A stretch of 46,250 bases of DNA from an uncultured Chlorobiaceae bacterium. GTDB taxonomy: Bacteria > Bacteroidota > Chlorobiia > Chlorobiales > Chlorobiaceae. The translations under genes and the position numbers were made by a program. The notes beneath the pieces were generated by a model. The model did not search any database. It was not told the origin of the DNA and was given only the letters and a program-made list of their open reading frames with translations. Each line of letters starts with the position of its first letter. Position 1 is the stretch's first letter. Shown in pieces: positions 76-45,553 of the stretch. The DNA is taken from contig CAIXLG010000212.1 in the NCBI GenBank assembly GCA_903920215.1, positions 1 to 46,250 on the forward strand, written 5' to 3'.

Positions 76-629
76 CATAGTCAGGTGTCCCCCATTACAC
101 CTGACCAATCTCACTGGCGTGAGATGTTTCAAAGATATACAAACAACTCCCGTGCCAAAAAACATCACCCTCCCCGTCACCCATTATATCTTATTTTAAA
201 ACAATATCTTAGCAATACATGCAACTTAAAAAGTGACAAGCCACACTGAGCGACATATTGTCTCATTTTATTACAAGCACTTATTTCCTGTATTTCAATA
301 TGGAACACTGTCTCATTATTGAGACAACACCAATTCAGCGTTGAATCAGCTCCGGAGAAGGCATGGGACGTTTCATCACTTAAAAGCCGCCAGAATCGCC
401 TGCTGTTCATTACCCTTTCATCTTTTCAAATTGAAGCCGTTTTAAAAGCTGATATGGCATTTTCATTTGGAGAATAACGAATTCTTAGCGACCGTTGCCC
501 TCACAAAAAATCTATAAACCCATCCAAAAGAGTACAATAAAAAAACAGACCTGATTTATTAAAGATATCTGAAAGTTATTGGCTATACTTGTCATAATGT
601 CAATAATATTCCCGTGGGGAGAACTGAAA

Positions 630-1907
630 ATGAAACCACCCAAAAACTTTTCGGCATTGCGAGAGCAAGCTGGCCTCTCTATTGATAAGATAGCCCATAT
701 TACAGGTTACAGTAAACGAGAGGTCTATCGCTGGGAAAAAAATGAGGTAGTTCCAAGAAAGGTTGTCTTTGACCAGCTCACAAGAATAGCCCAACCATTG
801 TCTTGCTATGGGAAAGGCTTTCCGGATTTTACCTTTATTGATCTTTTTGCCGGTATCGGTGGCATGAGAAAAGCTTTCGGGGAGCTTGGCGGAAAGTGCC
901 TTTTTACCAGTGAATGGGACAAGTTTTCCCGCCAGACCTACTTGGCGAATTTTGAGTGTGATCACGAGATTGGCGGTGATATCACAAAAATTGATGCTCA
1001 GGATATCCCTGCTCATGACATCCTCGTTGCGGGGTTTCCCTGCCAGCCGTTTTCAATCGCCGGAGTTTCAAAAAAAAATGCACTTGGCAGGCCTCACGGA
1101 TTTGCAGACAAAACACAGGGAACTCTTTTTTTCGATGTTGCGAGAATTATTGAGCACCATCGCCCAAAGGCTATTTTGTTAGAAAATGTCAAAAATCTTG
1201 AGCGACATGATAAAGGAAAGACCTTCGGGGTTATCCGGGAAACGCTGAGGGAGCTAGGGTATTATTTTGACTGGAAAATCATTGATGCAGGAAACTGGGT
1301 GCCCCAGCACCGGGAAAGGATATTCATTGTGGGGTTCCGTGAGGATTGCGGATTCAGCTTTGACCGCTTTGCCCTGCCATGCGGCAGCGAACGACCTGTA
1401 ATTGAAACTATATTGCACCCTGAGAACGGCTCGGAACCGGAGGAACCGCCGTATACCATCGGACCATCCGCAAGAATAGCTGACCGGTACACCCTGTCTG
1501 ATCATCTCTGGCAATATCTCCAGCAATATGCCGAAAAGCATAGAGCCAGAGGGAACGGTTTCGGATTTGGACTTGTGGGCCCGAATGATGTTGCCAGAAC
1601 CCTTTCTGCAAGATATTTCAAGGATGGCTCCGAGATACTGGTGAAGCAAAGCAATAAAAACCCTCGAAGACTTACACCGAGGGAGTGCTCTCGACTGATG
1701 GGATTTGACAGTCCGAACGGCAACGACTTTATTATTCCTGTTTCAGACACCCAGGCTTACCGGCAGTTCGGAAATGCCGTTGTTGTTCCTGTGGTGAGGT
1801 CGGTAGCCCAATATATGCTGGAATACATGCTGGATGGTATATCCCCTGATCAGTTGCGTTTTGAGTTTGATGCGCTGATATCAGGAAATGATGTTCATTA
1901 TGGCTGA
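630..1907 (+). CDS. dcm: DNA (cytosine-5) methyltransferase, Dcm/M.EcoRII-like, with N-terminal helix-turn-helix
   Basis: C5-MTase motifs FIDLFAGIGGMRKAF, VAGFPCQPFSIAG, ENVKNL, QHRERIFIVGF; N-terminal HTH-like LREQAGLSIDKIAHITGYSKREVYRWE; ATG at 630 preceded by GGGGAGA, better than the 579 start. Confidence 0.93.
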   Translation: MKPPKNFSALREQAGLSIDKIAHITGYSKREVYRWEKNEVVPRKVVFDQLTRIAQPLSCYGKGFPDFTFIDLFAGIGGMRKAFGELGGKCLFTSEWDKFSRQTYLANFECDHEIGGDITKIDAQDIPAHDILVAGFPCQPFSIAGVSKKNALGRPHGFADKTQGTLFFDVARIIEHHRPKAILLENVKNLERHDKGKTFGVIRETLRELGYYFDWKIIDAGNWVPQHRERIFIVGFREDCGFSFDRFALPCGSERPVIETILHPENGSEPEEPPYTIGPSARIADRYTLSDHLWQYLQQYAEKHRARGNGFGFGLVGPNDVARTLSARYFKDGSEILVKQSNKNPRRLTPRECSRLMGFDSPNGNDFIIPVSDTQAYRQFGNAVVVPVVRSVAQYMLEYMLDGISPDQLRFEFDALISGNDVHYG

Positions 1908-2361
1908 TATCGTTTCACCGTCAACAAGAAGCCGGATGATGGCGGCCATACGTTCAAAAAATACAAAGCCTGAACTGGTGATCCGGAAAGCTCTTCATGC
2001 AAGGGGATTCAGGTTCAGGCTACACACTCCCAAACTTCCCGGAAAACCGGATCTTGTTTTTCCGAAATACCGTGCGGTTATCTTTGTTCATGGATGTTTC
2101 TGGCATGGCCATCATTGCACTCTTTTCAGATGGCCAAAAACAAGAGAGGAGTTCTGGAAAGAGAAAATTGACAAAAACAGAAGCCACGACCTTGCTGTCA
2201 TGGATGAACTGGCACGACATGGCTGGAAAATTCTTCTCATATGGGAGTGTGCAATGAAGGGAAAAGGTCGAAAACCGATTAAGGACATTGTTGATACCTG
2301 TACAGAATGGCTGAAAAATAATCATTCCAATAAAGAAATAAAGGGAATCAATGAAGAATGA
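1900..2361 (+). CDS. vsr: Very short patch repair endonuclease (Vsr)
   Basis: SRMMAAIRSKNTKPEL, PGKPDLVFPKYRAVIFVHGCFWHGHHC, CAMKGKGR; overlaps the dcm 3' end. Confidence 0.93.
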   Translation: MADIVSPSTRSRMMAAIRSKNTKPELVIRKALHARGFRFRLHTPKLPGKPDLVFPKYRAVIFVHGCFWHGHHCTLFRWPKTREEFWKEKIDKNRSHDLAVMDELARHGWKILLIWECAMKGKGRKPIKDIVDTCTEWLKNNHSNKEIKGINEE

Positions 2362-3574
2362 CTTGACTGAATGGATAACCCGGGTTACCGGGTCTGATTT
2401 CGTCTATTACATCAAGCGACTCTCAGGAAATGACACCCTCGCCAACGGGACACACCAGGCAGGGCCTTATATCCCCAAGGATTTTCTTTTGACTGTTTTT
2501 CCTGCTCTCAACAATAACGCTTTACTGAATCCTGATATACGATTTAACCTGAATATTGACTCCCATGATGACATGCGCTCTATAAGGGCAATCTGGTACA
2601 ACAACAAGTTTCATGGTGGCACAAGGAATGAGACAAGACTGACCAATTTCGGAGGACAGGAATCTGCTCTTCTAAATCCTGAAAATACTGGAGCACTGAC
2701 CATTTTTGCTTTTTTGCTTGACAATAATGGAGAAGCTGCAGAATGTCATGTGTGGGTATGTAAAAATGTCCAGGAAGAAGATTATGCAGAAGAACTCTTT
2801 GGTGCAGTCGAACCGGGTAAATGGAAAATATGGTCACTTGATGAGTCAATATATGCGAGAATTAGTGCAGGAAAAGAAAAAGAGAAGGTTGACTGCTGGC
2901 TGAAACTGTCAGACATTCCTCCATCATGGATAGCAAAATTTCCAACGGGGGCTGATATCATCAGAAAAACAGTTGAACTGAGACCTGCCCGGAATCTCGA
3001 TCCGGATGCCCGGCTGATTATCCGGCGAAATTGTGAGTACGAAATGTTCCGCAGCCTTGAAGACGCGATAGAGCTTCCCTGGATAAAACAGGGTTTTGGC
3101 AGTATAGACGAGTTTATTGCAAAAGCTCAAACTGTTTTGCAGAGACGCAAGTCTCGATCAGGCCGATCACTTGAACTTCATATCAGGGAAATTTTTCTCG
3201 AAGAAAAGCTCAGGGAGGGCATGGATTTTTCCCACCAGCCTGAATCTGAACCAGGTAAAAAACCTGATTTCCTGTTTCCATCTGAACAGAATTACAAAAG
3301 CGCCGGTTTCGACACCGAAAAGCTGAGGATGCTTGCAATAAAAACCACATGCAAGGATCGGTGGCGACAGATACTGAGTGAAGCAGACCGGATCAGAACC
3401 AAGCATCTTCTCACCTTGCAGGAAGGCATTTCGGAAAACCAGTTCAGAGAAATGATAACTCAGAATGTACAGCTTGTAGTCCCCGAAAAACTCATCGGAA
3501 AATATCCCCACGCAGTGCAGCCACATCTGATGACGCTCAAAAAATTTATTTCCGAAATCAGAAGGCTGAAATAA
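2351..3574 (+). CDS. Type II restriction endonuclease, EcoRII family (C-terminal catalytic domain)
   Basis: C-terminal SLELHIREIFLEE...KKPDFLFPS...LAIKTTCKDRWRQIL...KHLLTLQEGIS matches the EcoRII-C PD-(D/E)XK domain; directly downstream of dcm/vsr. Confidence 0.88.
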   Translation: MKNDLTEWITRVTGSDFVYYIKRLSGNDTLANGTHQAGPYIPKDFLLTVFPALNNNALLNPDIRFNLNIDSHDDMRSIRAIWYNNKFHGGTRNETRLTNFGGQESALLNPENTGALTIFAFLLDNNGEAAECHVWVCKNVQEEDYAEELFGAVEPGKWKIWSLDESIYARISAGKEKEKVDCWLKLSDIPPSWIAKFPTGADIIRKTVELRPARNLDPDARLIIRRNCEYEMFRSLEDAIELPWIKQGFGSIDEFIAKAQTVLQRRKSRSGRSLELHIREIFLEEKLREGMDFSHQPESEPGKKPDFLFPSEQNYKSAGFDTEKLRMLAIKTTCKDRWRQILSEADRIRTKHLLTLQEGISENQFREMITQNVQLVVPEKLIGKYPHAVQPHLMTLKKFISEIRRLK

Positions 3575-32547: not shown

Positions 32548-34395
32548 ATGTGCGGAATTGTTGGTTATATAGGGTGGCGTGAAGCTGTTCCGATACTTTT
32601 GCAGGGGTTGAAGCGGCTTGAATACCGTGGTTATGATTCAGCCGGGCTGGCTCTTTTGAATGGCGACCTCCTTTCTGTGATAAAACAGAAAGGAAGTGTG
32701 AGCGGGCTTGAAGCAGCAACCGTTACCCTCCCGGAAGAGATGCGAAATGCCACCATAGGTATTGGACATACCCGGTGGGCTACCCATGGCGAACCAAGCG
32801 ACCGTAATGCTCATCCTTTTTTGAATGCTTCTCGAGATATCGCTCTCATTCATAACGGCATTGTCGAAAACTTCTCGGTGCTGAAACGGGAGCTGCTCTC
32901 TCAGGGTTATATATTTTTAAGCGATACGGATTCCGAGGCACTGGTTCACCTGATCGACAGAATATGGAAAAGTGATTCCTCGCTTGACCTTGAATCAGCT
33001 ACCCGTAACGCGCTTCGTCATGTTGATGGAGCATACGGTATTTGTGTGATCTCTTCGCGGGAGCCTGACAAGATCATCGTTGCACGTAAGGGAAGCCCTC
33101 TGGTAATCGGTATCGGTACCGGGGAGTATTTCATTGCATCTGATGCTGCTCCGATAGTTGAGCATACCAATAAAGTGGTTTATCTCTCTGATGGTGAGCT
33201 GGCCGTTGTTACCAGGGATGGTTACACCGTAAAGTCAATTGAAAATATCGAGCAGGCAAAAATTGTAACGGAGCTTGATTATTCGCTTGATAAAATAGAG
33301 AAAGGAGGCTTTGAGCATTTCATGCTCAAGGAGATTTTTGAACAACCTGAGGTCATGAAGAATGTAATGCGGGGCCGTGTGCATCCTGAAAAAGGCTTGA
33401 TTCGACTTGGCGGGATCGAGGATTATCTCGACCGGCTGAAACAGGCAAAGCATATAGTCATCTGTGCCTGCGGCACAAGCTGGCATGCAGCGTTGATTGG
33501 AAAATATCTTATTGAGGAGTTTGCCCGTATTAGGGTAGAGGTTGATTATGCTTCAGAGTTCAGGTATCGCAATCCCATTGTCGGGGTTGATGATGTAGTA
33601 ATTCTGATTTCCCAGTCTGGAGAGACTGCTGACACTCTTGCTGCACTTCATGTAGCGAAGGAAAAAGGTGCCCTTGTGATGGGTATCTGCAATGTGGTAG
33701 GCTCCACAATAGCCCGTGAAACCATGTGCGGCATGTATACCCATGCAGGGCCTGAGATTGGTGTTGCTTCGACCAAGGCTTTTACAGCTCAGGTAGTTAT
33801 GCTTTATATGCTTGCCCTCTCGCTCGGCAAGGGTAGAACCATTTCGCACGATGAAATTGCTTTGCATCTGAGAGAACTTTCAAGCCTTCCTGAAAAAGCC
33901 TCACGCATTCTTGAACTTGACGCTCAGATAAAGGGTATTGCAGAACGCTTCAGGGATGCAAATAATGCTCTTTATCTTGGGCGGGGTTACAATTTTCCGG
34001 TTGCTCTTGAGGGGGCTCTGAAACTTAAGGAAATCTCTTACATCCATGCAGAAGGTTATCCGGCAGCTGAAATGAAGCACGGCCCGATTGCCTTGATTAA
34101 TAAGGATATGCTGATTATTTTTATCGCCACCCACGATAGTACTTACGCTAAAATTCTCAGTAATATCGAGGAAGTGCGCAGTCGAAAAGGCAGAGTTATC
34201 GCTATTGCTAATGTTGGTGACGGAGAGGTGAGTCGTCTGGCAGAAGAAGTCATTTTTATTCCTCCATCTTCAGCGCCGCTGTCACCTCTTTTAACGGTTA
34301 TTCCCCTGCAGCTCCTTGCCTGTCATATTGCCACACTCCGCGGCTGCAACGTTGACCGGCCACGAAACCTCGCAAAATCGGTGACAGTGGAATAA
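32548..34395 (+). CDS. glmS: Glutamine--fructose-6-phosphate aminotransferase (isomerizing)
   Basis: MCGIVGYIGWREAVPILLQGLKRLEYRGYDSAGLAL, GHTRWATHGEPSDRNAHPF, ACGTSWHAALIGKYLIE, C-terminal RPRNLAKSVTVE. Confidence 0.98.
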   Translation: MCGIVGYIGWREAVPILLQGLKRLEYRGYDSAGLALLNGDLLSVIKQKGSVSGLEAATVTLPEEMRNATIGIGHTRWATHGEPSDRNAHPFLNASRDIALIHNGIVENFSVLKRELLSQGYIFLSDTDSEALVHLIDRIWKSDSSLDLESATRNALRHVDGAYGICVISSREPDKIIVARKGSPLVIGIGTGEYFIASDAAPIVEHTNKVVYLSDGELAVVTRDGYTVKSIENIEQAKIVTELDYSLDKIEKGGFEHFMLKEIFEQPEVMKNVMRGRVHPEKGLIRLGGIEDYLDRLKQAKHIVICACGTSWHAALIGKYLIEEFARIRVEVDYASEFRYRNPIVGVDDVVILISQSGETADTLAALHVAKEKGALVMGICNVVGSTIARETMCGMYTHAGPEIGVASTKAFTAQVVMLYMLALSLGKGRTISHDEIALHLRELSSLPEKASRILELDAQIKGIAERFRDANNALYLGRGYNFPVALEGALKLKEISYIHAEGYPAAEMKHGPIALINKDMLIIFIATHDSTYAKILSNIEEVRSRKGRVIAIANVGDGEVSRLAEEVIFIPPSSAPLSPLLTVIPLQLLACHIATLRGCNVDRPRNLAKSVTVE

Positions 34396-34508
34396 ACCGG
34401 GGAACCACCAAATTTCCAGTCAGCTTCATATAGAATCTGATTGAATGATCATTGATTGATAGATCCATTTTAAAAACTATATTACATTTTTAATCTCACC
34501 ACGATAGC

Positions 34509-34541: not shown

Positions 34542-34609
34542 ACTATATTACTGCAATGTGTAAAGAATTTGAATAAACCACTAGCCTCCAACATTCAAAG
34601 GGATCATAC

Positions 34610-34780
34610 ATGTGTCAGGAACAAGCTAAAGCTTTCGTTGAAAAGTTAAAGCATGATAAGACGTTTAGAGAAACGGTGATCATTATCGAAGATGTAGAAG
34701 CAAAGCTGGAGTACATCAATCAAGAGGGCTACATCTTTACATCGGATGAGCTTGATGTTGCGGTGTCTTCAATCCTTTGA
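34610..34780 (+). CDS. Nif11-domain small protein (NHLP/RiPP leader-like), 56 aa
   Basis: ATG with upstream AAAGGGAT; MCQEQAKAFVEKLKHDKTFRETVIIIEDVEAKLEYINQEGYIFTSDELDVAVSSIL matches the Nif11 pattern (AFLEKLK.D..F...., A...GF.FT..EL); not in the supplied ORF track. Confidence 0.8.
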   Translation: MCQEQAKAFVEKLKHDKTFRETVIIIEDVEAKLEYINQEGYIFTSDELDVAVSSIL

Positions 34781-34805
34781 TCAAGAATCACCCAGAGTTA
34801 ACGTT

Positions 34806-36230
34806 CTATTTCCATCCGCCTCCCAAAGCCTTGTAAAGATCAATCCGGCTGGTCAGATTCTGCTGACGAACCATAATTTCGTTCTGCTGCGCCCCGTAGA
34901 GAGATCGTTGGGCATCCAGCAGGGCAAAGAAACTGTCGATGCCATAGGCGTAACGGGCTTTCAAGATTGCATAGGCCTGTTCGCTGGCTTTGACAAGCGC
35001 CTGCTGGGCATGCAACTGCTCGCTGTAGGTTGCACTGGCCGCCAACGCATCCGCAACTTCCCGAAAAGCGGTCTGGATGGTTTTTTCATATTGCGCAATG
35101 GCAATATCGCGGTTGGTTTTTGCCAGTTTGAGCTTAGAAATCAATCGCTCTCCCTGGAAAATCGGCAAGCTCACCTGAGGGGAAAAGCTCCAGACACCGC
35201 TCGATCCACCCTCAAACAGATTGGTAAGGCTGCTGCTGGCAAACCCGGCGGAACCGGTAAGGCTGATGGTCGGGAAGAAAGCTCCCCGTGCAGCACCAAT
35301 ATTGGCGTTTTCAGCTTTCAGGGCATATTCGGCCTTACGGACATCCGGACGGTCCAACAAAACAGTGGATGGAAGTGCGACGGGGAGCATTTCCATCACC
35401 TGAACAGAGCTGAGGGTTTCGGACTTGAGAAGTTCAGCATCGATTTCCTTGCCGACCAAAAGGGTAAGTGCGTTCTTATCCTTTTCAAGCTGACGTTGAT
35501 ATTGTGCACGGTTTGCCCTGGCGGTTTCAACCACAGTGGCGGCTTGTGAGACGTCGAGTTGTGACTTGGCACCCAAATCGAAGCTGCGCCTGATGAGATC
35601 GAAGGAGTCTTGCTGGGTCTTGAGCGTGTTTTCGGTCAACTGCAGCAGTTCAATATCGGCAAGATAGGTGAGATAGGCATTGGCCACCTCAGCAATTAAG
35701 CTTGTCTGGGCAGCTTTGCGACCTTCTTCCGTTGCAAGATAGAGGTTAAGGGCGCTGTTGCTGAGGCTGCGGACACGCCCGAAAAGATCCAATTCATATG
35801 CCGTGAAACCTATGCCGGAGGTATATGACGAGACAGTTTGTGAAGTACCGGAAGTGCTGGAGTTTTCCGATAATCGTTGTCGAGTTGCGCTTCCCGACGC
35901 GTTAACCGAAGGCAAAAGATCTGATCGCTGTATACGATAGGTATGGCGGGCTGCCTCAATATTGAGCGTCGCGATCCGGAGGTCGCGGTTATTGACAAGG
36001 GCCGCTTCAATAAGGCTCTGCAGCTTTGGCGACTGGAACATGCTCCGCCATCCGATATCAGCGACATGCGATTCTCCTGCAGTTTCCAATGCCGGCAGGG
36101 GTACCTTCCCCGTAAAGGTCGACCATTGTGCGGCTACAGGCGCCATGGGGCGCTGGTAGCGAGGAGCCAGTGAACAGGATGACAGCATGGTGGCTGCCAT
36201 GCAAACCGGGATCAGGAGCTTATTCGTCAT
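34806..36230 (-). CDS. RND efflux outer membrane lipoprotein (NodT/OprM family)
   Basis: Lipobox-like [89 protein letters not shown]. Confidence 0.93.
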
Positions 36231-39200
36231 GGTTTGATCCCCTATCATTTTGAGTTTCGGTCAGTTCGGTTACAGACTTGCTGGTAAAAAGGGATTGTAC
36301 CAGAATGTAAAACAACGGCACAAAAAAGATTGCCAACACCGTTCCCGACAACATCCCGCCGATGACACCGATACCGATGGCGTGCTGGCTTGCCGAGCCC
36401 GCTCCAGAGGAAAATGCGAGAGGTGTTACACCAAGAATGAAGGCCATGGAAGTCATGACAATCGGGCGCAGACGTTGCCGGGCGGCCGTCAGGGCTGCCT
36501 CCTTCAGATTCATGCCTTGTTCGTTGAGGGATTTTGCAAACTCCACGATGAGAATGGCATTTTTTGCAGTAAGGCCTACAGTGGTCAGCAAGCCCACTTT
36601 GAAGTAGACATCGTTGGAGAGACCTGCCAGGGAAGTAGCCATAACCGTGCCAAAAACACCAAGCGGCACTACCAGCATGACCGCAAGCGGCACGGTCCAG
36701 CTTTCGTAAAGGGCTGCAAGGCAAAGGAAAACAAACAGCAATGAGAACCCATAGAGGAGCAGTGTTTGCTGGCCTGCCGCACGCTCTTCGTAGGAAAGAC
36801 CTGTCCATTCGATGCCAAAGCCTTCGGGAAGCTTTAATGCCAATTGCGTCAACACAGCCATGGCATCACCTGAACTTACACCAGGAGCTGAGGCTCCCTG
36901 GATATTTACCGACGATATGCCATTGAAACGCTCCAACTTTGGCGAGCCGTAGCTCCAGCGGCCAGTGGCGAATGCCGAGAAAGGCACCATAGTACCAGTG
37001 GCGTTCCGGATGTGCCAGAGGTTGACATCTGCCGGGTTCATGCGGAATGGGGCGTCGCCCTGCATAAACACCTTCTTGATGCGGCCATCATGAATAAAAT
37101 CATTGATATAAGAGGATCCCCAGGCAGTTTGCAGTGTGGCATTAATGTCGGCAATGGAAAGGCCAAAGGCGCTGGCTTTTTCCTGGTCGACATCAATCTT
37201 GTATTGCGGCACATCTTCAAGGCCGTTGGGTCGAACGCCGTTCAGTGAAGGATTTTTTCCTGCCAGGCCCAGCAACTGATTACGGGCATTCATCAGCGCC
37301 TCATGGCCTTTTCCATTACGATCAAGAAGTTGAAAATCAAAACCGGAGGCATTGCCAAGTTCCATGACAGCGGGCGGGTAAAATGCAAAGATCATGGCGT
37401 CCTTGACGCTCGACAGGGCTCCCATGGTACGACCGGCTATGGAGGCGACATTTTGTTCCTTTTTTTTGCGCTCACCCCAGTCTTTCAGTTGGACGAACCC
37501 CATGGCGGAGTTTTGACCCTGACCGGCAAAGCTGAAGCCTGTCACGCTGAAAACGCTTTCAACGACATTTTTTTCCTCGTTGAGGAGGTACTTTTCCATC
37601 GCTTTCACGCTTTCGAGTGTCCGTTCCTTCGTTGCTCCGGATGGGGTGGAAAGCTGAACGAACATGAAGCCCTGGTCTTCTTCGGGGAGAAACGAGGTCG
37701 GGATACGCATTAATACGACACCCAGCAGTATCACAACCATCATGAATGCCGCCAGAGAGCGTTTAACATTGCCGGTCATGACGTTCGCCCCTTTGACATA
37801 ACGTTCGCGGTTGAGGTCGAACAAGGCATTGAACCAGGCAAAAAAACGGCCGAGGATACCTTTGTCGGAACGATGCCCGTTCTTGCTCATCGGCTTGAGG
37901 AGGCTGGCACAGAGGGCTGGCGTCAAAATCAGAGCAACCAGAACCGAGAGAAGCATGGCCGAGACAATAGTAATCGAGAACTGACGAAAAATCGTACCGG
38001 TGGAGCCTTTAAAAAAAGCCATTGGCACAAATACCGCGGAAAGTACAAGGGCTATTCCAATCAGCGCGCTGGAGATCTGCTCCATGGATTTTTTGGTAGC
38101 CTCCAGAGGGGAAAGGTGCTCCTCTTCCATAATGCGCTCGACGTTTTCGACCACAACAATGGCGTCATCCACCAGCAATCCGATAGCAAGCACCATGGCG
38201 AACATGCTGAGAGTATTGATAGAGAACCCAAAGGCCGACATGACTCCAAAAGTTCCCAAAAGCACGACAGGCACTGCGATCGTGGGCACCAGAGTCGCAC
38301 GGAAATTCTGTAGAAAGATGAACATCACAAAGAACACAAGAATAATAGCCTCAAACAGGGTATGAACAACTCCTTCGATGGAGGTCTTGACAAAGGGTGT
38401 CGTATCAAACGGGTAAACGATTTGAACACCTGGTGGCAACAGGGTCTTCAGCTCTTCCATCCTGGCTTTCACCAGTTCAGCGGTTTTCAGTGCATTGGCC
38501 CCGGTCGCAAGAGTGATGGCCATCCCGGCAGCTGGTTTGCCATTGAAGCGGGTTGTCATGTCATAGTTTTGCACGCCCAGCTCGATACGGGCGACATCCT
38601 TGAGGCGCACCTGGGAGCCGTCGGTATTAACCTTCAACATGATTTTTTCAAAATCTTCAACGTTTTTCAGGCGCGATTGGGCTGTAATCGTGGCATTCAG
38701 CTGTTGTCCTGGTACCGATGGGGTTCCTCCCAACTGACCGGCTGAAACGTCAGCGTTCTGGGCGCTTATTGCCGACTGCACCTCGCTCGTCGTGAGGTTG
38801 TAACTGGCAAGCTTGTAGGGATCAAGCCAGATACGCATGGAATAGGGTTGCCCGAACACCTGAATGCTCCCAACACCGGGAATACGGCTTAGCGGATCGA
38901 GTATTTTGGAGTTAAGGAAATCGTTCATGATGAATTCGTTGACGCGACCATCGGCAGAGAAAACGCCGACAACCATCAGGAATCCGGTGTCCCCCTTGGT
39001 GACTTTCAGTCCCTGCAGCTGGACTTGCTGCGGCAGGTTTGACATGATGGATTGCAGCTTGTTCTGCACCTGAACCTGGGCAATATCGGGGTTGACTTCC
39101 GGCTCGAACGTCAACGTAATACTGACATTTCCATTGGAATCACTGCCTGAGCTAAAATATCGGAGGTGGTCAAGGCCGGTAAGCGCCTGTTCAATAACTT

Positions 39201-39387
39201 GGGTTACACTGTTTTCAACCGCCTGGGCAGAAGCTCCCGGGTAGGAGGCGTTAATGTTGATGGTAGGTGCCGCAATGCGTGGATATTGTTCAACCGGAAG
39301 GGTCTGTATGGCAATGAACCCTCCCAGCATAATACAGATGGAGATCACCCACGCAAAAACTGGTCGTTCAATGAAAAATCTGGACAT
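36220..39387 (-). CDS. RND (HAE1/AcrB-type) multidrug efflux transporter
   Basis: [45 protein letters not shown]...; typical AcrB motifs and length (1055 aa). Confidence 0.96.
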
Positions 39388-39413
39388 GAGAGCGATTACT
39401 TGAATGAAAGAAA

Positions 39414-40568
39414 TTATCTGGCAGGAACGGCAGGTTGTCCAACCTCTACTGTTTTCACCTTCATGCCTGGTTGAATTTTCATAATACCTTCATAAACGAC
39501 CTTTTCACCAGCCTTGAGCCCACTCGTGACAATCCATTTGTCCCCGATAATTTCCGCAACTCCGATTGGACGCACGCTCGCCTTGCCGTCTTTACCGACA
39601 ACCCAAACTGAAACCGTGCCGTCAACATTTCGTATCACCGATTTCTGTGGAACTACAATGGCCTGATCGTCTTTCCACTGCTCCAGACGGGCATGGACAA
39701 ACATGCCGGGAAGAAGCTCGTGATCGGGATTGGGAAAAAGCACCCGGAGCAGAACCGTGCCGGTGCTCGGGTTGATCGTCACATCCGAAAACTTCAGCTT
39801 ACCGAGCTGACCAACTGTTTTGCCATCTGTCAAAAGGCGGACGGGAGCAGTTGCATTGTCGGAATCCGCACCCTTTAGAGCCTGATGACGCTTGCGCAAG
39901 AGCATCAGCTCCTCACTCGACTGGTAAACGTCCACATAGATTTGATCAAGCTGCTGTACAACCGCCAACGCTACAGACTGATTGGCATTGACCAGAGCTC
40001 CTTCCGTGACCATTGACTGCCCGATACGTCCAGAAATCGGAGACATGACTTTGGTATAGTCAAGATTGATTCTGGCAGTCGAAATTTCTGACTTGGCAAT
40101 GGCAACATCGGCCTTGGCCTGGGCAAGGCTTGCTTTTGCGTCGTCATACTCCTGTTTGCTGACCCCGCCGATTTTCACCAGCTCGGCATAACGAGCTTCC
40201 TTAGCCTGGACCGACTTCACGTTTGCCTCGGCTTTGCCAAGGCTGGAGCGGGTGCTGTTATAAGCCGACTGATACGAAGCGGGATCAATCTGATAGAGTT
40301 GCTGGCCTTGCTTGACCATACTGCCTTCCACGAAAAATCGCTTTGTAACAATGCCGCTGACCTGAGGGCGTATCTCAGCTATCCGTATGGCCGAAGTTCG
40401 CCCTGGCAGGTCTTTGGTCAATGCCACAGGCTCGGTCTTCATGGTTACAACACTAACCTCCGGCTTAAAATCAGGACCCGTGCGGTCAGCTGGCGAACCT
40501 TTAGGCCAAAGGTACCAGGCGGCAATCGCAACAACGAGTAAGCCTGCAATGATATAAGACCTTTTCAT
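39414..40568 (-). CDS. RND efflux periplasmic adaptor (AcrA family)
   Basis: [69 protein letters not shown]. Confidence 0.95.
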
Positions 40569-40576
40569 GATGGAGG

Positions 40577-41161
40577 TTATCCTTTATATGAGTTGTGGGT
40601 TGGTGCGTGACTCTCCGGCTCGCTTGCATACATCGCCCTGATACCCTCCAGAAACGAAAAACGCTCCTGGCTGCTCCAGTTGACGAGACCGAACCATTCA
40701 TGGCAATTGAATCCGATAAGGGCGAAATAGACTATGCGTGCGGCTTCAGGCTTCGCTCCGGCTTCCATGGCTTTCAGGTCATGAACGGTCCATTCCCGCA
40801 TCTTCCGCTGGAGAGAGACTTCACTCGACATAGAGGAGGATACGGCCAATGCAACTGCTCGCTCAATGTCATCTGGAGCTTGCTCCGCCCTCTTGATACG
40901 TGCAAAAAGTTCGGGATGGGGAGTTTCAGCACATTCCCGGACAAGCATGTCGATACGCTCTTTGTCCCGTTGAAACTGGCGGTCGATAAGTGCCTCAAGA
41001 AGGGCGGTCTTGGATTTATAGTCATACACAACCCGGGATTTGCTGATTCCGGCCTCCTGGGCCACGGCGTCAATAGATAAGCGTGATACCCCTAGCTTGA
41101 CGACAACGCGCTCAATTGCATCCAGAATTTCGTGAGTGCAGACTTTCTTGGTTCTGGCCAT
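40577..41161 (-). CDS. TetR-family transcriptional regulator
   Basis: N-terminal HTH: EILDAIERVVVKLGVSRLSIDAVAQEAGISKSRVVYDYKSKTALLEALID; upstream of efflux operon; start MARTKK at 41161. Confidence 0.88.
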   Translation of the reverse strand: MARTKKVCTHEILDAIERVVVKLGVSRLSIDAVAQEAGISKSRVVYDYKSKTALLEALIDRQFQRDKERIDMLVRECAETPHPELFARIKRAEQAPDDIERAVALAVSSSMSSEVSLQRKMREWTVHDLKAMEAGAKPEAARIVYFALIGFNCHEWFGLVNWSSQERFSFLEGIRAMYASEPESHAPTHNSYKG

Positions 41162-41390
41162 GATACTGTCCCCTTGAATGGTTGGCATTAATTTAAACAC
41201 GATCGTTCTTTTATGCAATTTATTTTCAAAATGTTTGCAGGGATAATGAAAATAAAAGAGAGGAACTGGAATCAGAGGTGGGAAAACTGAAGCTGATGGC
41301 CATGCGGCTAAGGAAAATCGCCAGAAAATGGGCGTATCTGAATGATTCAGGGGGGCTGCTGATTTTAGAACGAAACGTTCTCTTATTCAG

Positions 41391-41771
41391 TCATTTCCTG
41401 TATCCCAAACCTGAGAAGGATGCTATCAACGTTCCATCTTCATCTTTTATTTCGACTTTATACCCGCTAATCTTTTTACTTTTACTTTCCTCTCTTGCTT
41501 CAGCCCTGATGTATGTTCCTGCAGGTGCTTTGAAATAAGATATAGACGCATTTATTCCTACTGTGGTGCTTCCATCAGCATTACTCGCTATAGCAAACGC
41601 ATAATCGGCAAGTGTAAATATTGCGCCACCCTGAACAATATTGATACCGTTCTTATGCTTGTCCTTAATTTTCATTTCAACCAATGCGTACCCCGGAGAA
41701 GCGTCAACTATCTCAATACCCAGCAACTGTGCAAACCTGTCGTTTTTCACATTTTTCAGAATGTCTTCCAT
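41391..41771 (-). CDS. Hotdog-fold thioesterase (PaaI-like)
   Basis: FAQLLGIEIVDASPGYALVEMKIKDKHKNGINIVQGGAIFTLADYAFAIASN. Confidence 0.88.
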   Translation of the reverse strand: MEDILKNVKNDRFAQLLGIEIVDASPGYALVEMKIKDKHKNGINIVQGGAIFTLADYAFAIASNADGSTTVGINASISYFKAPAGTYIRAEAREESKSKKISGYKVEIKDEDGTLIASFSGLGYRK

Positions 41772-42200: not shown

Positions 42201-42261
42201 AGGGTTTGGCGGTATGGCAGTGTAGCTATAGATGCTAAAAAAAAGCAAGAACGGAACAAAA

Positions 42262-43536
42262 ATGCCAAAATACCAAAGACGGGTGGTAGATGACGAGCTC
42301 GACGAACTAATGCCCACGCTCCCTGCCATCGCACTGGAGGGGCCAAAGGGGGTCGGAAAGACAGCTACTGCGGAGGGGCGGTGCCGCACAGTATTCCGCT
42401 TTGATGAACCAGCCCAGCGTGCCATCGCTGAAGCGGACCTGGCACTGGTCTTAACCCAAGAACCACCGCTGCTTATTGATGAGTGGCAGCGAGTGCCTTC
42501 TGTCTGGGATGCCGTGCGGCGGACTGTTGACCGCGATCAAGTGCCTGGCCGTTTTCTGCTGACCGGCTCTGCCGGTCCGGTTACTCCTCCGACCCACTCG
42601 GGAGCCGGGCGGATCGTTACCCTGAGAATGAGGCCCATGTCGCTTGTGGAACGGGGTGTAGGTATGCCAAGCGTCAGCCTGAATCGACTCCTCATGGGGG
42701 GCAGGCCTGATGTTGCCGGCAAGACCGATGTGACCCTGTCGGATTATGTTCGCGAAATCGTCCACTCCGGCTTTCCAGGCATACGACCATTAGCCGGGCG
42801 GGCGCTTCGCTTACAACTGGACGGCTACCTGTGCCGCATTATCGATACCGACTTCCCTGAACAGGGATACATGGTGCGGCGGCCCGAGGTATTGCGGCGC
42901 TGGCTTGCTGCCTATGCTGCTGCTACTGCTACGACGGCTTCGTTCGAAACTATCCGTGATGCAGCGTCCGGAGGGCAGGGTGAAAAGCCCTCGAAGACAA
43001 CGACACAACCTTACCGGGAGATCCTTGAACGGCTTTGGATCGTCGACCCTGTTCCGGCATGGCTACCGTCCCGGAACCGTTTGAATCGACTCGCCCAACC
43101 GCCTAAGCACCATCTGGCCGATCCAGCACTTGCTGTGCGAATGCTCGGACTTGATACGGGCGCCCTGTTAGCTGGTGAAAACTCAAAGCTGCCGATTCCA
43201 CGCGATGGTTCCCTGCTGGGACACCTGTTCGAGTCGTTGGTTACGCTTGGCATCAGAACCTTTGCTCAGGCAGCCGAAGCTCAAGTCCGGCACCTGCGCC
43301 TTCATGGTGGACGCCAAGAAGTCGATCTGATTGTAGAACGCGGAGATCAACGTGTGATTGCCATCGAGGTTAAACTGAGTAGCACCGTGGATGATGGCGA
43401 TGTTCGACATCTTATGTGGCTGCGCGAGCAGATCGGCGATGATTTGCTGGACTCGATTGTGATTCATACCGGACCGCAGGCATATCGCCGCCCGGACGGG
43501 ATTGCCGTTATCCCGGCAGCATTGCTTGGACCATGA
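42262..43536 (+). CDS. AAA ATPase with DUF4143 domain
   Basis: Walker A ALEGPKGVGKTATA; PPLLIDEWQRVPSVWDAVRRTVD; C-terminal LRLHGGRQEVDLIVERGDQRVIAIEVKLSSTVDDGDVRHLMWL. Confidence 0.88.
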   Translation: MPKYQRRVVDDELDELMPTLPAIALEGPKGVGKTATAEGRCRTVFRFDEPAQRAIAEADLALVLTQEPPLLIDEWQRVPSVWDAVRRTVDRDQVPGRFLLTGSAGPVTPPTHSGAGRIVTLRMRPMSLVERGVGMPSVSLNRLLMGGRPDVAGKTDVTLSDYVREIVHSGFPGIRPLAGRALRLQLDGYLCRIIDTDFPEQGYMVRRPEVLRRWLAAYAAATATTASFETIRDAASGGQGEKPSKTTTQPYREILERLWIVDPVPAWLPSRNRLNRLAQPPKHHLADPALAVRMLGLDTGALLAGENSKLPIPRDGSLLGHLFESLVTLGIRTFAQAAEAQVRHLRLHGGRQEVDLIVERGDQRVIAIEVKLSSTVDDGDVRHLMWLREQIGDDLLDSIVIHTGPQAYRRPDGIAVIPAALLGP

Positions 43537-43613
43537 ATTCCAACGATACTTGCTCTTGATCGTCGTGTAATTGATGCCCGTTGTCACTCTCCTTGAACTC
43601 AAAGTCTAAGGGG

Positions 43614-43925
43614 ACATCCTATATTGATGGAAACGAACGATTAGCGCGCCTCGTCATGAACGCAGAGTTGTCTATTGTCAATGCATGCAGAATGATTGTG
43701 CCAACGCTCTTCAGAGAGGAATATCTGGATTGCCTGCGCGTACTCACACGGCAGGGGAAACTTGAGCCGTTCATTTCCGCCATGCAGAAAATCCAGCAAT
43801 GGACAGCCGCATTCGACTACACCGATCTGGATCGGGTGATTGAGCAGATGAAAGCCTGCAATGCATTCGAAAAATCCCGCAGGCAATACCAACTGCTCAA
43901 CCTTTCTGACTTGGCAGGTTCTTAA
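43614..43925 (+). pseudogene. Fic C-terminal fragment (duplicate of downstream Fic 3' end)
   Basis: IDGNERLARLVMNAELSIVNACRMIVPTLFREEYLDCLRVL... nearly identical to the Fic C-terminus at 45241-45553; 1-nt deletion in the HPF region and GNG to GNE. Confidence 0.88.
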
Positions 43926-43961
43926 TAACACATAGGCTCACGGGGCTCATCATGGGCATGA
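43614..43961 (+). repeat. 348-bp direct repeat, copy 1 (partner 45241-45588)
   Basis: acatcc...gattagcgcgcctcgtcatgaacgcagagttgtct... to ...ggctcacggggctcatcatgggcatga; few substitutions versus copy 2. Confidence 0.88.
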
Positions 43962-44053
43962 TACGTTTGACATTTCTCAATGATTTATTTAAGTTAATAT
44001 TTGCGACAGAAATCGTATTTTAAGATAAATAACGCGACATATCGACTAAATTC

Positions 44054-45553
44054 ATGAAGCCATCGCTAAAAAACACGACAACCGATGATTCACTGATCCT
44101 GTACGCCGAACTCAATGATGCTGAGATAAGAGCTGCACAACGGCGATTGAAAACCGGCAGGTTAAAGCGTATTGTCCCTGGCATTCTCAGCGCCAGCCCT
44201 GAAAAAGAGTGGCCAGCAATTATTGCGTTGCAAAGAATGAGAGTCCTCGCCGCTCTTTTTACTGGTGCAGTTATTGGCTATAGAAGTGCCTTCAGAGGCG
44301 GCACGCCCGTCGACGGGGTAATGCACCTCAGCTACAACTACAACAGAATCGTCGAGTTACCGGGTTTAAAAGTGGTTTTGGTCAAGGGTACCGGAAAAAC
44401 TGCTGGCGACCTGCCAATGTCAGGGCGAGACCTTTATTTTCCCTCTCAAGCCCGCATGCTGATGGAAAACCTAACCCCGAGTCGTGGAGCGATCAGAAAA
44501 TCCGTTGGGCGAGTTGCCGTCGAAGAAAGGCTGGTCAGTATTTATGAATCAAGAGGTCCAGACACTCTCAACCGCATCAGGGAAGAAGCTCGCGATATTG
44601 CTGCTCACCTGGGGTTTGAAAGGGAGTTTCAGGTTTTGAATGAACTCATCGGAAGCATTCTCGGAACAAAAAGTGCGCAACTCGCTACGGCTGCAGGACA
44701 AGCATTGGCCGCAGGGATACCTTTTGACGCCGGGCGTATAGCCCTTTTTGAAAAGTTGGCCGCTACATTGCGTGCAATGCCTCTGACACAAAAAGCATCA
44801 CATGCTACAACCGAAAGAGCGCGCATCAACTTTGCTTTCCTGGAGTCCTATTTCAGCAACTTCATCGAAGGGACGGAATTTAATGTTTCTGAAGCACGGC
44901 AAATTGTACTTGAGGGAAAAATTATCGAACAACGCCCGAAAGACTCACACGACATCCTCGGTGTCTTCAGGCAAGCCATCAATCCCGGGTGGTCAAACCA
45001 ATCCATGACAATAGGTGAAGGCGTATTGCACCAATTGCAGCAGCGCCATCTGGATCTCATGAAAGAACGACCGGAGTCAGCTCCTGGTGATTTTAAAGAC
45101 CGGGAAAATTTTGCAGGGAACACCACGTTTGTCTCACCGAGAAATGTACGCGGAACTCTGATTGAGGGAAGCAAGCTCTTGCCGTCAGTTCATCCTGGAA
45201 TGGCCAGGGCATTGCTGGCGATGTTTATAGTCTCGGAAGTACATCCCTTTATTGATGGAAACGGACGATTAGCTCGCCTCGTCATGAACGCAGAGTTGTC
45301 TGTTGTCAATGCATGCAGAATGATTGTGCCAACGCTCTTCAGAGAGGAATATCTGGATTGCCTGCGCGTACTCACACGGCAGGGGAAACTTGAGCCGTTC
45401 ATTTCCGCCATGCAAAAAATCCAGCAATGGACCGCCGCATTCGACTACACCGATCTGGACCGGGTGATTGAGCAGATGAAAGCCTGCAATGCATTCGAAA
45501 AATCCCGCAGGCAATACCAACTGCTCAACCTTTCCGACTTGACCGGTTCTTAA
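44054..45553 (+). CDS. Fic-domain protein with N-terminal AbiEi-like region (candidate class II Fic)
   Basis: Fic motif HPFIDGNGRLARL; SxxxEG inhibitory motif (SNFIEG) upstream; N-terminal RLKRIVPGIL...VLAALFTGAVIGYRSAFRGG...LPGLKVVLVKG resembles AbiEi antitoxin family. Confidence 0.88.
   Translation: MKPSLKNTTTDDSLILYAELNDAEIRAAQRRLKTGRLKRIVPGILSASPEKEWPAIIALQRMRVLAALFTGAVIGYRSAFRGGTPVDGVMHLSYNYNRIVELPGLKVVLVKGTGKTAGDLPMSGRDLYFPSQARMLMENLTPSRGAIRKSVGRVAVEERLVSIYESRGPDTLNRIREEARDIAAHLGFEREFQVLNELIGSILGTKSAQLATAAGQALAAGIPFDAGRIALFEKLAATLRAMPLTQKASHATTERARINFAFLESYFSNFIEGTEFNVSEARQIVLEGKIIEQRPKDSHDILGVFRQAINPGWSNQSMTIGEGVLHQLQQRHLDLMKERPESAPGDFKDRENFAGNTTFVSPRNVRGTLIEGSKLLPSVHPGMARALLAMFIVSEVHPFIDGNGRLARLVMNAELSVVNACRMIVPTLFREEYLDCLRVLTRQGKLEPFISAMQKIQQWTAAFDYTDLDRVIEQMKACNAFEKSRRQYQLLNLSDLTGS

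Follow-up and report, generated by a model that had tools for sequence, protein, structure and literature searches.

A coreless Nif11 gene beside a second glmS

The window analysed here is a stretch of 46,250 nucleotides, contig C212 of a Chlorobiaceae genome (G000) that spans 3.04 Mb and is 99.7% complete. An ORF on its plus strand, opening with ATG, encodes a 56-aa protein, MCQEQAKAFVEKLKHDKTFRETVIIIEDVEAKLEYINQEGYIFTSDELDVAVSSIL (Table 1). A sequence-only reading had proposed a Nif11-like gene with a plausible ribosome-binding site at this spot, between glmS and an RND efflux operon; the ORF and its quoted sequence proved exact, a Shine–Dalgarno-like element precedes the ATG, and matches to TIGR01135 and TIGR01845 bore out the identity of both neighbours.

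The hexamers of a possible promoter upstream are identical in the orthologous locus of genome G061 and read TTGATG/TATATT in that of G033; this candidate is conserved in look, yet shuffle expectation was not exceeded. A hairpin that would hide the ribosome-binding site, seen by eye as the inverted repeat TTTGAAT/ATTCAAA, was also rejected, the leader folding worse than its shuffles (z about +1.7 to +2.1). The 5′ leader of the ORF is unfolded, and an Rfam search for an element at the nif11 locus returned none.

Table 1 Features of the window and of related loci (G, C and L numbers are our handles for genomes, contigs and loci; positions without a handle are those of the window)
Feature	Position	Strand	Basis or remark
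Type II restriction–modification cassette	579–3574		Cytosine methyltransferase, Vsr nicking endonuclease, type II restriction enzyme
Second glmS copy, 5′ neighbour	32548–34395	+	TIGR01135, 796 bits
Possible sigma-70-type promoter	34456–34483	+	TTGATA-N16-TATATT, 10/12 matches
Shine–Dalgarno-like element	34597–34603	+	AAAGGGA, 6 nt 5′ of ATG; AAAGGGG in G061 and G033 orthologues
Coreless Nif11 protein gene, 56 aa	34610–34780	+	Pfam Nif11; TIGR03798 positions 1–50/68; purifying selection
RND operon and TetR-like gene	34793–41380		Between nif11 and thioesterase gene in G000 and G061
RND outer-membrane channel gene, convergent 3′ neighbour	34806–36248	−	TIGR01845
Thioesterase gene	41391–41771		Directly 3′ of nif11 in G033 and G071
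DUF4143 ATPase gene, then Fic-family gene	42232–45553		PADLOC SoFic
Fic gene of G033	L145 10579–12078		2 kb from nif11; 95.5% identical to window Fic gene
Other glmS of G000	C22:25290–25783		81% identical to window glmS over the stretch compared
Nif11-like stretch, probably a degraded gene	L152 (G071:C46:3341–3469)	−	Resembles a coreless copy; no visible start codon
Metallophos–NACHT–FGE-sulfatase protein (STAND), 1168 aa	L072 6282–9788 (G038:C18)		Convergent with coreless Nif11, about 0.1 kb away
Long degenerate tandem repeats	L080 1600–6750 (G000:C18 island)		Periods 40–244 bp
Long degenerate tandem repeat	L071 5296–5779		Period 42 bp; island with coreless Nif11
Core-bearing Nif11 precursor, 88 aa, and radical SAM/SPASM gene	L081 6471–8171 (G000:C228)		Convergent; GGNLLWCSELGLCAHHKATMCQVP tail; also in G061
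73-aa Nif11 ending FERWxWEAKLLADWL	L175, L176, L177		About 5.2–5.9 kb in each

The protein stops short of the leader model

The Nif11 assignment held in the profile searches that had been suggested for it. Residues 1–48 match positions 1–48 of the 48-position Pfam profile PF07862 (E = 7.5e-11, 42.6 bits, curated cut-off 23.8), and TIGR03798 matches at 1.3e-10 (41.4 bits, curated cut-off 32.3) over profile positions 1–50 of 68 only. The view that the whole length fits a Nif11 or NHLP leader pattern fared less well: the match ends at position 50–51, the missing positions 51–68 are the C-terminal ELSDEELxxVxGG cleavage motif, and the NHLP model TIGR03793 was absent from the NCBIfam matches up to E = 1. 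The remark that no core peptide follows was correct, the protein stopping about 8 residues past the domain, where TIGR03798 proteins carry a variable C-terminal core. Two further marks of that family are missing, as no maturation enzyme adjoins the gene or lies elsewhere on the contig and no match to PF03412, the C39 leader-peptidase exporter domain, was found in G000. The published family has a leader of 69 residues and a suffix of about 23 (PMC2887384, Table 3), so even the entire 56-aa chain falls short of an ordinary leader.

Purifying selection in changing neighbourhoods

Conservation in related genomes, whose absence would have counted against the sequence-only reading, was found. Orthologues of the window gene are present in G061, G033 and G071 (93%, about 80% and 82% identity, respectively), pairwise dN/dS among the four is 0.08–0.18, and substitutions at codon positions 1/2/3 number 4/5/17 against G033 (P = 0.0008) and 5/5/19 against G071 (P = 0.0004). 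Because orthologues in three genomes combine low dN/dS with substitutions biased to third positions, the ORF is no chance match, and judged by these patterns of change it is under strong purifying selection. In the comparison with G071, where the flanks differ, blastn similarity spans the ORF and ends at the ORF ends; DNA similarity among unlinked coreless copies is likewise usually confined to the ORF. A frameshifted precursor was ruled out, since the four orthologues and many paralogues share nearly the same end point.

These data also bear on a decayed RiPP precursor, in which the core was lost through truncation and the leader is now drifting. Such an origin would suit the homology to leaders, the absence of maturation genes nearby and the precursor label that NCBIfam would give the 56-aa protein, but it is contradicted by the dN/dS values, by a near-identical end point in 20 distinct proteins and by the multiplication of copies described below; we consider it very unlikely.

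The order glmS–nif11–RND is retained in G061, and the corresponding orders are glmS–nif11–thioesterase in G033 and GGDEF–nif11–thioesterase in G071, the RND operon being absent from that place in both. We rejected a functional link to the RND operon because only G000 and G061 have it separating nif11 from the thioesterase gene. A link to glmS was rejected as well: the order of the second glmS and nif11 is shared by three genomes (G000, G061 and G033) and absent in G071, and a gene like the second glmS in G038 (contig C12) has no adjoining Nif11. Most relatives show only the C22-type glmS.

A coreless lineage within one Chlorobiaceae subgroup

Profile searches recovered 21 coreless genes, encoding 20 distinct proteins of 53–63 aa, in 9 of 86 Chlorobiaceae genomes (four in G071; three each in G061 and G080; two each in G000, G033, G038, G066 and G073; one in G072). 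All of these proteins lack the ELSDEELxxVxGG motif and a core. Other Nif11 proteins sampled in the family are nearly all 68–109 aa long and mostly GG-tailed. In a domain-only tree of 91 sequences a single branch sets the coreless proteins apart from the others, requiring one label change; with 50 columns the tree is of low resolution, and a single origin of the coreless form is weakly supported (50/0 with all 20 sequences, 94/87 with 19 of them). Chromosomal and island copies are intermixed in it. All nine coreless-bearing genomes are among the 11 closest to the window glmS in the family (hypergeometric P about 1e-10), and the lineage is thus confined to one subgroup; 24 genomes from outside the family but within its order and phylum gave no match. 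On sequence grounds, coreless Nif11 is a distinct, selected, GG-less subfamily of the known domain family.

Coreless Nif11 without the usual RiPP machinery

Genome-wide searches placed no RiPP enzyme on the contig, in line with the earlier observation for the window, and the proposed hunt for lanthipeptide and cyclodehydratase genes returned neither LanC-like/LanM nor YcaO genes, nor any C39 protein gene, in G000. Three radical SAM/SPASM genes were found in that genome (on C172, C220 and C228). Paralogues, which had also been suggested as a check, exist elsewhere in it: a second coreless copy on C18 and two core-bearing Nif11 genes, one on C101 (85 aa) and one on C228 (88 aa) adjoining a radical SAM/SPASM gene. 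Across the nine coreless-bearing genomes, LanC occurs in none, YcaO in one and C39 in three, and the Nif11-specific maturase TIGR04064 exceeds its cut-off in none. Radical SAM/SPASM enzymes are present in every genome with a coreless copy, and coreless Nif11 may be linked to RiPPs through one of them. In G080 (98% complete) all three Nif11 genes are coreless, and the genome has no core-bearing Nif11 gene, LanC, YcaO or C39. As the survey showed, a genome can carry coreless Nif11 while having no LanM, YcaO, C39 or core-bearing Nif11 precursor of its own.

Three roles had been offered for the ORF. An orphan precursor is disfavoured, the coreless form being a selected lineage of its own. As a trans-acting leader or decoy, free Nif11 would bind a RiPP maturase such as the radical SAM/SPASM enzyme of C228 and activate or tune modification of a core-bearing precursor; the host does carry two core-bearing Nif11 genes, one of them beside such an enzyme. 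The coreless domain, however, is only about 31–33% identical to the host core-bearing leaders, and TIGR04064 is missing above cut-off from all nine genomes. This role looks unlikely because the Nif11 proteins of G080 are all coreless and the host lacks LanC/LanM, YcaO and C39, and we hold it to be doubtful. The data fit neither a precursor nor a trans-leader that is required in general. They favour the last of the three roles, a Nif11 protein that stands alone and serves some other purpose, even though the 56-aa protein passes the NCBI cut-off for RiPP precursors. We are highly confident that the window protein is real and conserved and is no classical precursor.

Copies in mobile and defence islands

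Coreless copies are scattered: they adjoin the second glmS, PAS and GGDEF sensor genes, and trpB, Sel1-repeat and sbcCD-like genes (names read from sequence), and no neighbour gene is consistent across them. The second copy of G000, on C18, lies in an island with an integrase, ERF, RNase T, Sipho_Gp157 and a RusA-like protein (just below cut-off) that also carries ArdA, Mrr, an Eco57I-type methylase and an SNF2/PLD helicase. Related arrangements surround copies in G080, G038 and, in part, G066, and a copy in G073 is flanked by TrbI and ArdA. The 86 genomes yielded just two ArdA genes, both of them about 0.5 kb from a coreless Nif11 gene; the naive chance of such placement is about 1e-6, with two cases whose orientations differ, making the association a lead rather than a demonstration. 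A protein related to the Metallophos–NACHT–FGE-sulfatase protein of G038 (Table 1) adjoins the second G038 copy, and one lies 4.4 kb from the G066 copy. A phage origin was rejected, as phage records and viral contigs gave no match and PHROGs matched 1 of 18 members, at 0.0068. No plasmid match to the coreless form was found, the sole plasmid match being a core-bearing precursor.

These surroundings raise the possibility that coreless Nif11 is a mobile-element accessory protein that opposes host defence, for instance with ArdA against restriction, and that the chromosomal copies are domesticated. The C18 island, with its Mrr and Eco57I-type genes, and its relatives would fit, as would the copies beside TrbI and ArdA or a STAND protein, the proximity of both ArdA genes and the mixing of chromosomal and island copies in the tree. 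Set against this are the small number and differing orientations of the ArdA pairs, the lack of phage, viral or coreless plasmid matches, and the ordinary chromosomal neighbourhoods, common to several genomes, in which most copies sit, the window copy included; we regard this account as rather unlikely. A free-standing Nif11 recruited into the conflict between mobile elements and defence, travelling with ArdA islands and docking a defence or anti-defence protein, is in our estimate an unlikely variant.

A candidate docking module

AlphaFold2, run on the single sequence, gave four helices (mean pLDDT 80, pTM 0.55), and in this model the 56-mer would fold as a small helical bundle; a Foldseek search for a structural analogue gave no match with E <= 0.001. 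A long, structured NHLP-family RiPP leader is reported to dock its enzyme through protein–protein surfaces (PMC12455567). By analogy, the window protein, which is one Nif11 domain alone from a lineage without cleavage segment or core, selected in one Chlorobium group, is predicted to dock a cytoplasmic client through such contacts while delivering no core to an enzyme. It would act as a free adaptor or regulatory mini-domain, predicted to be made from its own transcript, and may have spread within and between genomes partly through integrative or conjugative islands. We see the chances as evenly balanced that a free-standing helical Nif11 domain serves as an adaptor or docking module for one cellular client.

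A different cellular role would be that of an unprocessed signalling or metabolic regulator of photosynthetic diazotrophs, a small protein of nitrogen stress. TIGR03798 has been reported solely from nitrogen-fixing, mostly photosynthetic bacteria (PMC2887384), and in one Prochlorococcus island four of five nif11-domain genes are responsive to nitrogen stress, as relayed by a paper citing the original (PMC2784084). Several coreless copies adjoin PAS/GGDEF sensor genes, but these genomes abound in such genes, giving a high base rate, and nif genes were not noticed among the annotated neighbours of coreless copies. We think this role improbable and retain the adaptor reading.

Comparison with known Nif11 forms

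Nif11 proteins were reported to have no known function (PMC2887384), and the coreless lineage offers a clean case for what the domain does alone. Automatic annotation would label its members RiPP precursors because the TIGR03798 cut-off is passed; miners of natural products should not count these genes as biosynthetic clusters.

Compared with PF07862, the window protein is a full-length match (48/48) that adds only about 8 residues. With TIGR03798 (N11P; prochlorosin-type leaders) it shares positions 1–50 and a score above cut-off; it lacks positions 51–68 and the core, totals 56 aa against 69 plus about 23, and resides in a genome without LanM, YcaO or C39. The C101 and C228 proteins of the same host have the same domain but match to position 68 and carry GG and a core, at the low identity to the window protein given above. 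The radical SAM/SPASM enzyme on C228 falls far short of the cut-offs of all the named maturase models listed, and with its precursor is likely to form an uncharacterised RiPP pair.

The 73-aa Nif11 proteins of other Chlorobiaceae that end in FERWxWEAKLLADWL are also GG-less; unlike the coreless lineage, they form a separate tree clade with a conserved tail of their own. Their recurring neighbours include a membrane protein of roughly 157 aa that may resemble BchF. The sole convincing solved relative found was chain A of PDB 9zn4, a 'Nif11 domain-containing protein' (profile E = 2.5e-4, positions 1–50) that, at 77 aa, is longer than the 56-aa window protein.
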